64,000 bases of DNA from Gluconacetobacter azotocaptans (lineage in GTDB: Bacteria; Pseudomonadota; Alphaproteobacteria; Acetobacterales; Acetobacteraceae). Below the pieces are notes generated by a model. The model was not told the origin of the DNA. It did no database searches and saw only the letters and a program-made list of their open reading frames with translations. This document shows, one piece after another, positions 9,440-11,298 of this stretch. Each line of letters opens with the position of its first letter. Positions within the stretch are counted from its first letter, which is position 1. The translations under genes were made by a program, and so were the position numbers. The stretch is taken from the NCBI RefSeq assembly GCF_014174355.1, contig NZ_JABEQF010000005.1:310001-374000 (forward strand), in the 5' to 3' direction.

Positions 9440-9535
9440 TCCCCGCGACCCTGCCATACAGACAGGGCGATGGGGGCATCGCATATCTAATCATCACTTT
9501 ACACTTGCAGGGTCTTCGGACCCTGCATTTTTTTT
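9440..9535 (+). ncRNA. candidate small RNA (three hairpins ending in an intrinsic terminator)
   Basis: On the plus strand, opposite to both flanking genes, three stems follow each other: CCCTG/CAGGG (9449-9453 with 9463-9467), GCGATG/CATCGC with a GGGG loop (9467-9472 with 9477-9482, sharing one base) and a perfect 8-bp stem with a TTCG tetraloop followed by eight T (9507-9535). No open frame fits. An additional GATCA/TGATC pair sits at 9427-9441. The 5' end and promoter are uncertain; TTGACC at 9419-9424 could be a -35 element but no clear -10 follows. It does not resemble an RNA family I know. A terminator with no upstream gene on that strand is the main argument. Confidence 0.42.
9507..9535 (+). 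terminator. Rho-independent terminator
   Basis: GCAGGGTC / TTCG loop / GACCCTGC is a perfect 8-bp stem with a UUCG tetraloop, followed by A and eight T. Its direction is plus, whereas the genes on both sides are minus, so it must end an unannotated plus-strand transcript. Confidence 0.8.
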
Positions 9536-9688: not shown

Positions 9689-10435
9689 TCAGAGTGCGCC
9701 CAGGGACGGCGCCGGGCTAGCCGTCGGCACCGCGACGGGTTTCGGCACCGCCGGACGAGGCAACGCATCTTCCTTCAGCATATATCCCTGCCCCCAAACG
9801 GTGGTAATCAGGTTATCGACCCCGGCCTGATGCAGCTTCTTGCGCAATTTGCAGATAAAGACGTCGATGATCTTCATCTCGGGCTCGTCCATGCCGCCAT
9901 AGAGGTGATTGAGGAAGGCATCCTTGGTCAGCACCATCCCCTTTCGCAGCAGCAGCAGTTGCAGGATCAGATATTCCTTGCCGGTCAGATGCACCGGCCG
10001 TCCGTCGACCGAGACCTCGCGGCTGTCCAGGCAGAGCTTCAACCGGCCTGCCCGCAAGGTCGGTTCGCAATAGCCCTTCGATCGCCGGACCACCGCCTGC
10101 ACGCGCGCCGCCAGTTCGGTCGGGTCGTACGGCTTGGTGACGTAATCGTCCGCCCCGGCGGAAAACGCCTTTACCTTGGCCTGGGGCCGAACCAGACTGG
10201 ACAGGACCATCGCCGGCGTGTCGATCCGCGCGGCCCGGATCGTCCGCACGACCTCGTATCCCGCCATGTCCGGCAGGACCATCTCCAGAAGAGCAAGGTC
10301 GTAGTCATACCGTCGAAGCATTTCGACCGCTTCGCCCCCCGTGGAGACATGGTCGACGGAATATCCGATCGACCGCAATGTGCCGGAAGTACCTTCAGCC
10401 GTGTCATCATCATATTCGACGAGCAGAACGCGCAT
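9689..10435 (-). CDS. CtrA-like OmpR-family response regulator with a non-canonical receiver (Glu51 in place of Asp51)
   Basis: 248 residues. The C-terminal winged helix (LTGKEYLILQLLLLRKG, FLNHLYGGMDEPEMKIIDVF, ICKLRKKL) is nearly that of CtrA, the alphaproteobacterial cell-cycle regulator. The receiver aligns with Caulobacter CtrA without gaps, but position 51, the phospho-acceptor Asp, is Glu (YDYDLALLEMVLPDM), and Asp8 of the acidic pocket is Tyr (VEYDD). Lys101 and the Ser of VLSS remain. Thus phosphotransfer is unlikely, and Glu51 may lock an active-like state. The C-terminus is a Pro/Ala-rich tail ending in GAL. ATG at 10435 is chosen by CtrA alignment; a TTG ten codons upstream (10465) is possible. 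Probably a paralogue, with the true ctrA elsewhere. Confidence 0.9.
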   Translation of the reverse strand: MRVLLVEYDDDTAEGTSGTLRSIGYSVDHVSTGGEAVEMLRRYDYDLALLEMVLPDMAGYEVVRTIRAARIDTPAMVLSSLVRPQAKVKAFSAGADDYVTKPYDPTELAARVQAVVRRSKGYCEPTLRAGRLKLCLDSREVSVDGRPVHLTGKEYLILQLLLLRKGMVLTKDAFLNHLYGGMDEPEMKIIDVFICKLRKKLHQAGVDNLITTVWGQGYMLKEDALPRPAVPKPVAVPTASPAPSLGAL

Positions 10436-11298
10436 TGGACCACCACAGGTTTTATTTTGTAACAATTACTACCTATAGGTGTATATCCTCCCTGAAACAA
10501 TCTTTATGAGACGCATCTTCTCCATATCGTCCTTCGACTCACGCATATGTTATATCAAACATTTCTCTCGCCGGTCGGCAGGAGCCAATTCCTTCATCAA
10601 TACGATTTCGTTTCGAGATACGTTTTTTCCTTGAAAGAGACCGGAGAGTGGGTATACCCACCACCACCGAACGTCGTCTTGCGCCCACTGGACGCGATGC
10701 GGCACCCCAAACAAGAAACGATCATGAACCCCCGATCTAGAAACGCCTCGCGGGGGGGCCACGCCCGACGCATGTCGTCCGCGGGGTCCGTTCGCAGGCA
10801 GTGTGCATATCCGGGTCTGACCGTCCTGCTCGTCTGCTGACCTGCCCGGTCGGCCGACCGGCTTCGGGCTTTCCCGGTTCGAGCAACCGCTTGAACGGCA
10901 GGAGGCCCTGCTTCGTGGCTTTTTGTATTTTTCCGCACGTCCGGTGCCCCGTGCGGCAGGACCGGCGCGCATGAACCGCGCCCATGCCCCCGCCGCATCC
11001 CGCCGGCCGCGTGGCGCGCCGGCTATTCCCCTGCGGGCATGGTGTCGCGGCAGCGTGCTGCGTCATGCGTCCCCTCCGGGAATGCAGCCCCGCCGGGCCG
11101 AACCGGATCGCCGGCCCGGCTTCACCCACCATGTCGCGCTGGGATGCGCCTGGATGGCGGTGCGTGCCATCCACGGACTACGCAGCCGGGGCGTGCTGCG
11201 GCCACGCCATGTTTCCCGCCTGTTGCCGGTCATCGTCAGGATGTCGGGCGTATCGGGGACGGAAATACCCCTGAAATCCAGCCGGTAGAATATCGGGT
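10436..11298. other. 863-nt stretch without a convincing gene
   Basis: The first 250 nt upstream of the CtrA-like gene are clearly richer in A and T than the neighbourhood and probably hold its promoter. Further on there is a perfect 16-bp palindrome CCGGTCGGCCGACCGG (10846-10861), a 5-bp hairpin GCAGG/CCTGC followed some nucleotides later by two T-runs (about 10900-10932), and an inverted repeat CCGCACG/CGTGCGG (10933-10939 with 10950-10956). Short open frames on both strands (for example 10547-10840 plus) have no recognisable domain and no good ribosome site. No transposase remnant was seen. Confidence 0.5.

Follow-up and report, generated by a model that had tools for sequence, protein, structure and literature searches.

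The window analysed here, a stretch of 64,000 nucleotides from Gluconacetobacter azotocaptans, contains a gene for a regulator of the CtrA type, CtrA being a master regulator that is phosphate-switched in many related bacteria. The residue that would accept the phosphate, Asp51, is a glutamate in the window protein, and the original prediction was that the gene encoded a paralogue, constitutively active or blind to phosphorylation, in competition with a normal CtrA for the same DNA sites. The question raised by this locus is whether such a second CtrA exists and, if not, in what manner the genome's one CtrA might act when its receiver has no acceptor.

The ctrA gene of the window and its copy number

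The features of the gene are the following:

9689..10435, minus strand: ctrA orthologue with an aspartate-less receiver, 248 aa; ATG at 10435, stop at 9689-9691; sole copy found
10082..10435, minus strand: receiver domain, residues 1-118 (Pfam PF00072 at residues 3-113; 4qpj 1-118)
10283..10285, minus strand: codon 51, GAG, Glu replacing the phospho-acceptor Asp (translated codon; the same in 13/13 same-genus CtrA genes)
10412..10414, minus strand: codon 8, TAT, Tyr replacing the second metal-binding acid (translated codon)
10382..10384, minus strand: codon 18, Gly, corresponding to Leu18 in the CtrA-ChpT contact given in the available text of PMC9981736
9770..10054, minus strand: winged-helix DNA-binding region, residues 128-222, conserved (PF00486 at residues 145-220; entropy; dN/dS)
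9692..9769, minus strand: variable tail, residues 223-248, ending in GAL and not AA (translation, family alignment)

A Pfam search located a receiver (REC) and a Trans_reg_C domain in the 9689-10435 product, the PF00072 match to the whole protein being at 5e-22, and with its Glu51 the receiver falls under the definition of an aspartate-less receiver (ALR). The top NCBIfam model was that of CtrA (NF045991; 2.6e-97, 325 bits, with the second-best model at 1.2e-44), although the 325 bits miss the curated cut-off of 350 bits of a model whose name refers to the Rhodobacterales. In a structure search, residues 1-118 aligned with 118 residues of 4qpj, the solved receiver of Brucella CtrA and ninth in the list, the best match being 1kgs, another OmpR-type regulator. 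The CtrA-like DNA-binding domain that had been predicted is thus present, both as Trans_reg_C/PF00486 and through the CtrA model as the best one, and the translation likewise bore out the natural D51E change, the tyrosine in place of the pocket Asp8, and the loss of the AA tail: where a phosphorelay CtrA has Asp51 with acids at 7 and 8 and an AA degron, the window protein has Glu51, Glu7, and Tyr8 and terminates in SLGAL. Its gene has thiD-like and glmM-like genes as neighbours. A sequencing slip at codon 51 was excluded because Glu51 recurs in 13/13 same-genus CtrA genes, with varying GAA and GAG codons, and because Asp is retained by 8/8 further OmpR-type receivers that were examined in that genome, an FtcR-like one with Gln apart.

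The genome searched for CtrA copies comprises 4.13 Mb in 57 contigs and is rated 100% complete. Among 20 matches the window gene stood first, and a second CtrA, with Asp51 or otherwise, was not found in that genome; with the CtrA profile the window gene reached 8e-131 and the next gene 8e-53. The runner-up (C3:337839; L002 1396-2214), with 45% identity over residues 28-225 of the window CtrA, is a distant gene that we call FtcR-like, and which adjoins flgI, flgJ, and flgN, as those names were read from the open reading frames. In a tree that we chose to root on the FtcR-like rows, this gene and three same-genus FtcR-like rows formed a branch of their own (100% support), distinct from the CtrA rows. 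Its receiver, with Gln51, Ala79, and Ala101, is the second in the genome without an acceptor Asp. The two regulators are therefore alike in their CtrA-family DNA-binding domain and in a receiver devoid of the acceptor, but unlike in sequence (45% identity), in the flagellar neighbours of the FtcR-like gene, and in their separate branches.

The window gene groups in the tree with CtrA and apart from the other OmpR-type regulators, and no gene of the genome matches CtrA better, as is expected of a CtrA orthologue by descent; it is the genome's one CtrA as far as could be found. The competing paralogue had been suggested by a D51E change alongside a CtrA-like DNA-binding domain; but since the search of this genome, rated 100% complete if in 57 contigs with gaps between, turned up no second CtrA, and since the place of the CtrA orthologue in the tree is taken by the Glu51 proteins, that reading is scarcely credible, and a competitor at CtrA sites fails because there is no other CtrA found with which to compete. 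The contrary expectation, that the gene would prove to be the only homologue and regain Asp51 upon correction, did not come true, Glu51 being fixed in the genus.

Compared with a phosphorelay CtrA, the window protein is likewise an orthologous OmpR-type regulator, its receiver is unchanged in length relative to Brucella, and its DNA-binding domain and dimer-face residues are conserved; it departs from such a CtrA in Glu51, Tyr8, an altered docking helix, and the missing AA tail, and its genome in having no recognisable ChpT and no clear CckA. With the ALRs or pseudo-receivers ChxR (Glu) and RitR (Asn) it shares the replacement of the acceptor Asp, which replacement is most often by Glu, and it fits the ALR pattern described in the available texts of PMC4395418 and PMC12632262—the first acid kept, the second lost, and the pocket Lys kept—through Glu7, the loss of Asp8, and the retained Lys. 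Unlike ChxR and RitR, it is an orthologue of CtrA whose loss of a relay partner can be traced across relatives. The protein is CtrA by descent and an aspartate-less receiver by chemistry, and caution is advisable against annotating Glu51 genes as phosphorelay CtrA.

Residue 51, ChpT, and CckA among relatives

In a search of 14 same-genus genomes with all candidates scored, CtrA was found in 13, with Glu51 in 13/13, and was not found in the 14th (87% complete). The gene is intact in 12/14 genomes, with codon 51 being GAA in 10 and GAG in 2, and is frameshifted in G004, whose row was misaligned in the family alignment (R at 51) and whose Glu51 was taken from the same-genus search instead. Residue 8 varies among Y, H, N, G, and S, so that, of the two residues whose fixation in relatives was to be checked, Glu51 is fixed within the genus and Tyr8 is not.

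For the wider comparison 145 CtrA-like rows were fetched, from which we dropped 5 partial ones, 14 of g68/g96/g24, L185, and L155, leaving 124 counted rows; these are a chosen subset of the family, in which the ChpT-less genomes were fetched as completely as the listed matches permitted and the ChpT-bearing ones mostly at 1-2 per genus. A further 11 named CtrA rows served in the tree but not in the counts, and L251, labelled Asaia bogorensis, was nearest to other alphaproteobacteria and was treated as a mislabelled bin. The family sample held Glu51 rows in 19 genera. Among the matches listed from public genomes, 78/80 loci had Asp51 and 2/80 had Glu51, the latter from Novacetimonas maltaceti (identical to a g73 row) and Acetobacter musti (88% identical to a g31 row), and these two named Glu51 species are acetic acid bacteria. 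In the open-access literature searched, in so far as its text was available, no description was found of a CtrA in which Glu51 is fixed. The dropped group from g68 (L166, L168, L170, L172-L174), g24 (L176), and g96 (L178-L184) stands separate, has Arg, Ser, or His at 51, no better CtrA match being listed for the genomes concerned, and is possibly a strongly diverged CtrA.

ChpT was not found in the host genome by PF10090, a Caulobacter control being positive, and PF10090 exceeded its cut-off in 174/299 family genomes. A family-specific profile built from 21 ChpT sequences split the 299 genomes into two classes, 175 of them (hand count) scoring at least as well as 3.4e-26 and all others either scoring no better than 8.7e-11 or giving no match, with nothing between those two values among the matches listed; the host genome reached 5e-7 only. 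The family-wide CtrA and ChpT searches are to be read as a first-look filter on draft genomes, with 9 candidates scored per genome. Among the 124 rows, the ChpT-bearing ones have Asp51 in 49/49 instances, and the 75 ChpT-less ones comprise 50 with Glu51, 21 with Asp51, and 4 with another residue, where the ChpT-less status of 6 Glu51 rows was assigned by genus and not by test, and where completeness is 73-87% for the genomes behind 4 of the 21 Asp51 rows (G174, G087, G099, G052) and 81% for that behind one Glu51 row (G157). The tracking of CtrA with ChpT is also imperfect, since the ChpT-bearing G193 and G148 (98-99% complete) yielded no CtrA-level match.

On a quick tree, residue 51 changed at least 9 times. 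The AU test ruled out a single clade of the 52 Glu51 rows (p 4e-25), in our reading because Asp51 rows—g46 and part of g60—nest inside the Glu51 groups and g81 stands apart. The correlation between ChpT and residue 51 consists mostly of one clade plus g81 and is not statistically independent; tests on independent pairs found 4-5 supported pairs and had no power. Glu is evidently not required once ChpT is gone, because 21 ChpT-less rows keep Asp51, some of them nested in Glu51 groups. The genus g60, classed as ChpT-less, contains both states, Asp51 and Glu51 (L047 and L186 versus L059, L140, and L187), and its rows form a natural pair for the effect of the charge at 51.

The best match to a CckA profile in the host genome (2e-112) was a receiver-PAS-kinase-receiver hybrid kinase, of a two-receiver type (L106, L117) that occurs also in the ChpT-bearing G016 and G215, the CckA candidates of the ChpT-bearing G070 and G044 (L102, L105) having one receiver. 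Three of the four source genomes of that profile scored 4e-288 or better, the fourth, G215, being outside the comparison, and other ChpT-bearing genomes scored from 1e-128 to 5e-174, so that the profile does not decide CckA identity and is ambiguous outside the host genome; the ChpT-less Glu51 genomes G038, G022, and G091 retain CckA-like hybrid kinases at 7e-174 to 5e-161. On this profile the host genome has no clear CckA.

That ctrA occurs without a recognised chpT in part of the Rhodospirillales was already published (Brilli 2010, PMC2877005; Tomasch 2021, PMC8116508), and the present genomes are alike in that respect; a change of the acceptor residue is not mentioned in the available text of either source, and the words 'D51', 'aspart', and 'receiver' are absent from that of PMC2877005, in which CtrA phosphorylation in Caulobacter is called the indispensable layer of CtrA control. 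The main text of PMC13214618 does not mention CtrA. A clade in nature where purifying selection maintains CtrA with neither a recognisable donor nor an acceptor constitutes a ready comparison, which would reveal both how CtrA behaves without a phosphate oscillation and how a receiver changes once one relay protein has been lost.

The distance between ctrA and chpT is no more than about 10 kb in at least 36 genomes (hand count, among the matches listed). Two ChpT-bearing relatives (L096 3523-10642 and L097 2500-9569) have chpT followed by cheA and cheW and convergent with ctrA, to which the L097 locus adds a CheY-like receiver, cheB, and cheR; the phosphorelay pair is located there in a chemotaxis locus, unlike the ctrA of the window.

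Relaxed and conserved residues and a proposed explanation

Column entropy was compared between 19 Glu51 genera and 40 ChpT genera. The mean rise in the Glu51 genera was +1.19 at residues 7-9, +0.98 in helix 1—already the most variable segment among the ChpT genera—and +0.91 at residues 52-68, with 0.08-0.68 elsewhere in the receiver; by element, helices 2-5 and strands 3-4 rose by 0.39-0.91 and strands 2 and 5 by 0.08-0.10. The DNA-binding region rose by +0.10, residues 186-202 within it falling by 0.06. As measured by entropy, the relaxation is receiver-wide, being strongest at the pocket and the docking helix; and because it extends across the whole receiver it is not confined to the docking face, which circumstance counts against the explanation that we favour below.

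According to the available text of PMC9981736, CtrA Leu18 makes an apolar contact with ChpT, and the beta4-alpha4 loop touches the ChpT CA domain. Residue 18 is hydrophobic in 47/49 ChpT rows, 2/50 Glu51 rows, and 3/21 ChpT-less Asp51 rows, and Gly80, in that loop, is present in 49/49, 11/50, and 6/21, respectively, a pattern that points to docking residues varying with the presence of ChpT. In the pocket, an acid (D/E) at residue 8 occurs in 49/49 ChpT rows and is lost from 44/50 Glu51 rows, 40/50 of which retain Asp9. The AA tail ends 31/49 ChpT rows, 5/50 Glu51 rows, and 13/21 ChpT-less Asp51 rows. Among the Glu51 rows, D96, D97, R111, R117, and R118, which from other OmpR-type receivers we take to lie on the dimer face, are kept in 50/50, Ser/Thr79 likewise in 50/50, and Lys/Arg101 in 47/50; the available text of PMC9981736 places a conserved dimer patch of CtrA on beta5 and alpha5. 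In 11 same-genus pairs the dN/dS was 0.02-0.16 for the receiver and 0.02-0.20 for the DNA-binding region (one pair being near saturation), values indicating that ctrA is under purifying selection in the genus of the window.

We propose that the lineage of the acetic acid bacteria lost its phosphotransferase ChpT, the host genome being left without a clear CckA, and that, with no phosphate donor, Asp51 would then have given way to Glu. The negative charge that Glu carries permanently, lying against the retained Ser79 and Lys101, might partially imitate an aspartyl-phosphate. Asp8, which binds metal, and the helix 1 face that docks ChpT would thereafter have been free to change, with purifying selection holding both the DNA-binding domain and the dimer face (alpha4-beta5-alpha5). 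Because these last two parts stayed under such selection, we suppose that CtrA would dimerise and bind its targets without phosphorylation, its activity being set by the amount made, through transcription, and by neither the phosphorelay nor AA-tag proteolysis. From what the sequences establish—the sole copy found, the fixed Glu51, the want of a recognisable ChpT, and the changed docking residues, together with the conserved dimer and DNA-binding residues and the purifying selection—we infer the constitutive competence for DNA binding, the order of the steps, and the control by amount. On balance we hold it probable that CtrA in the acetic acid bacteria became uncoupled from the phosphorelay as a phosphorylation-independent and probably constitutively competent aspartate-less regulator; that it is a natural and heritable D51E phosphomimic, fixed over many genera of these bacteria and controlled only by the amount made, we advance with greater hesitation. 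If true, the protein would stand in the same D51E state as the laboratory-made CtrA, permanently off the phosphorelay.

A mimic may, nonetheless, not be needed. According to the available texts, a D-to-E change by itself is often too little to activate a receiver, the activity of the ALR ChxR survives a change of its Glu (PMC4395418), and in R. capsulatus a non-phosphorylatable D51A CtrA raised gene transfer when D51E did not (PMC6363796), so that a phosphorylation-free CtrA can act without imitation of the phosphate. For these reasons the main rival is a plain phospho-blind scaffold, in which Glu51 would be merely a mutationally near and tolerated residue after the loss of ChpT, and in which CtrA would work as the unphosphorylated CtrA does elsewhere or be switched by another ligand or partner. 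That in aspartate-less receivers at large Glu replaces the Asp more often than any other residue (26%, in the available text of PMC4395418), that the 21 ChpT-less Asp51 rows display the same change at residue 18, and that most Glu51 rows have forfeited the acid at residue 8 all suit such a scaffold; yet where ChpT-less rows have a residue other than Asp at 51 it is Glu in 50/54, and the partners that a mimic would need, Ser/Thr79 and Lys/Arg101, are kept in the proportions given above, although the count is weakened by shared ancestry. We consider the scaffold without mimicry rather unlikely.

A decay of the receiver toward loss, with CtrA dispensable in the group and its pocket eroding, is improbable. 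Some CtrAs of g31 (Acetobacter-like), g41, and g66 do have position 51 occupied by H, N, or A and lack Lys101, for which D, I, A, or L is substituted, a CtrA-level match was not found in g30, g77, g100, and one g31 genome (G129), and the frameshifted copy of G004 belongs to the very genus of the window; but the same-genus dN/dS is low in both domains, the dimer and DNA-binding residues are near invariant, and the gene is intact in 12/14 of the same-genus genomes. Random loss at other receiver residues, named beforehand as the mark of decay, thus applies outside the genus and not within, and the eroding receivers and the genomes lacking a CtrA-level match illustrate a possible end of the path. 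Four g31 receivers (L145, L150, L157, L159) have D, E, or H at 51, with D replacing Lys101 in two. More improbable still is a receiver that continues to be phosphorylated, by a different kinase or phosphotransferase, or on some other residue: the CckA-like hybrid kinases of G038, G022, and G091 and the frequent Asp9 would favour that possibility, but the window CtrA has neither the acceptor nor the second metal ligand, and the host's best CckA match is of the two-receiver type seen also in ChpT-bearing genomes.

Upstream region and binding motifs

With respect to the expression of ctrA, on which the proposed control by amount would depend, a promoter was not found upstream of the window gene by a consensus scan. 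By eye and by comparison the following features were noted:

10471..10480, no strand: palindrome ACCTATAGGT, conserved in the genus ahead of ctrA; distance to the start codon about 44 nt
10477-10472, minus strand: possible -10 TATAGG (by eye), overlapping the palindrome
10500-10495, minus strand: possible -35 TTGTTT (by eye), 17 nt before the possible -10

The palindrome, which is perfect and may be an operator or a -10 region, stands about 44-49 nt before ctrA in 12/13 same-genus upstreams, that of G011 being one base off, and occurs also in 2/4 g73 and 1/4 g60 upstreams. GANTC precedes ctrA in 6/12 same-genus upstreams, with no pattern. A terminator-like hairpin with a T run lies on the plus strand at 9506-9527, with no plus-strand gene evident before it, and may be due to chance, one such hairpin having been found versus 0.9 in shuffles.

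As a marker of lost proteolysis we considered RcdA, which we take to be the family of PF07323; it was not found in 43/43 genomes, ChpT-bearing and ChpT-less alike, with a positive Caulobacter control, and proved uninformative in being missing from both classes. The CtrA boxes were similarly dropped as a route to the regulon, TTAA-N7-TTAA having no consistent enrichment over the control: the host genome contained 3 versus 18 for the reversed control, and among 40 genomes the count was above the control in 6, equal in 3, and below in 31. Upstream of ctrA itself the box was present in 7/68 upstreams, uncorrected for chance in AT-rich sequence, with none in the genus of the window and all seven in ChpT-less genomes (G038, G043, G194, G231, G262, G073, G147). 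Those boxes (L145, L047, L059, L140, L135, L146, L156) are situated 112-170 nt before ctrA, at -142 in three of g60, and would make autoregulation of ctrA possible in these seven genomes.
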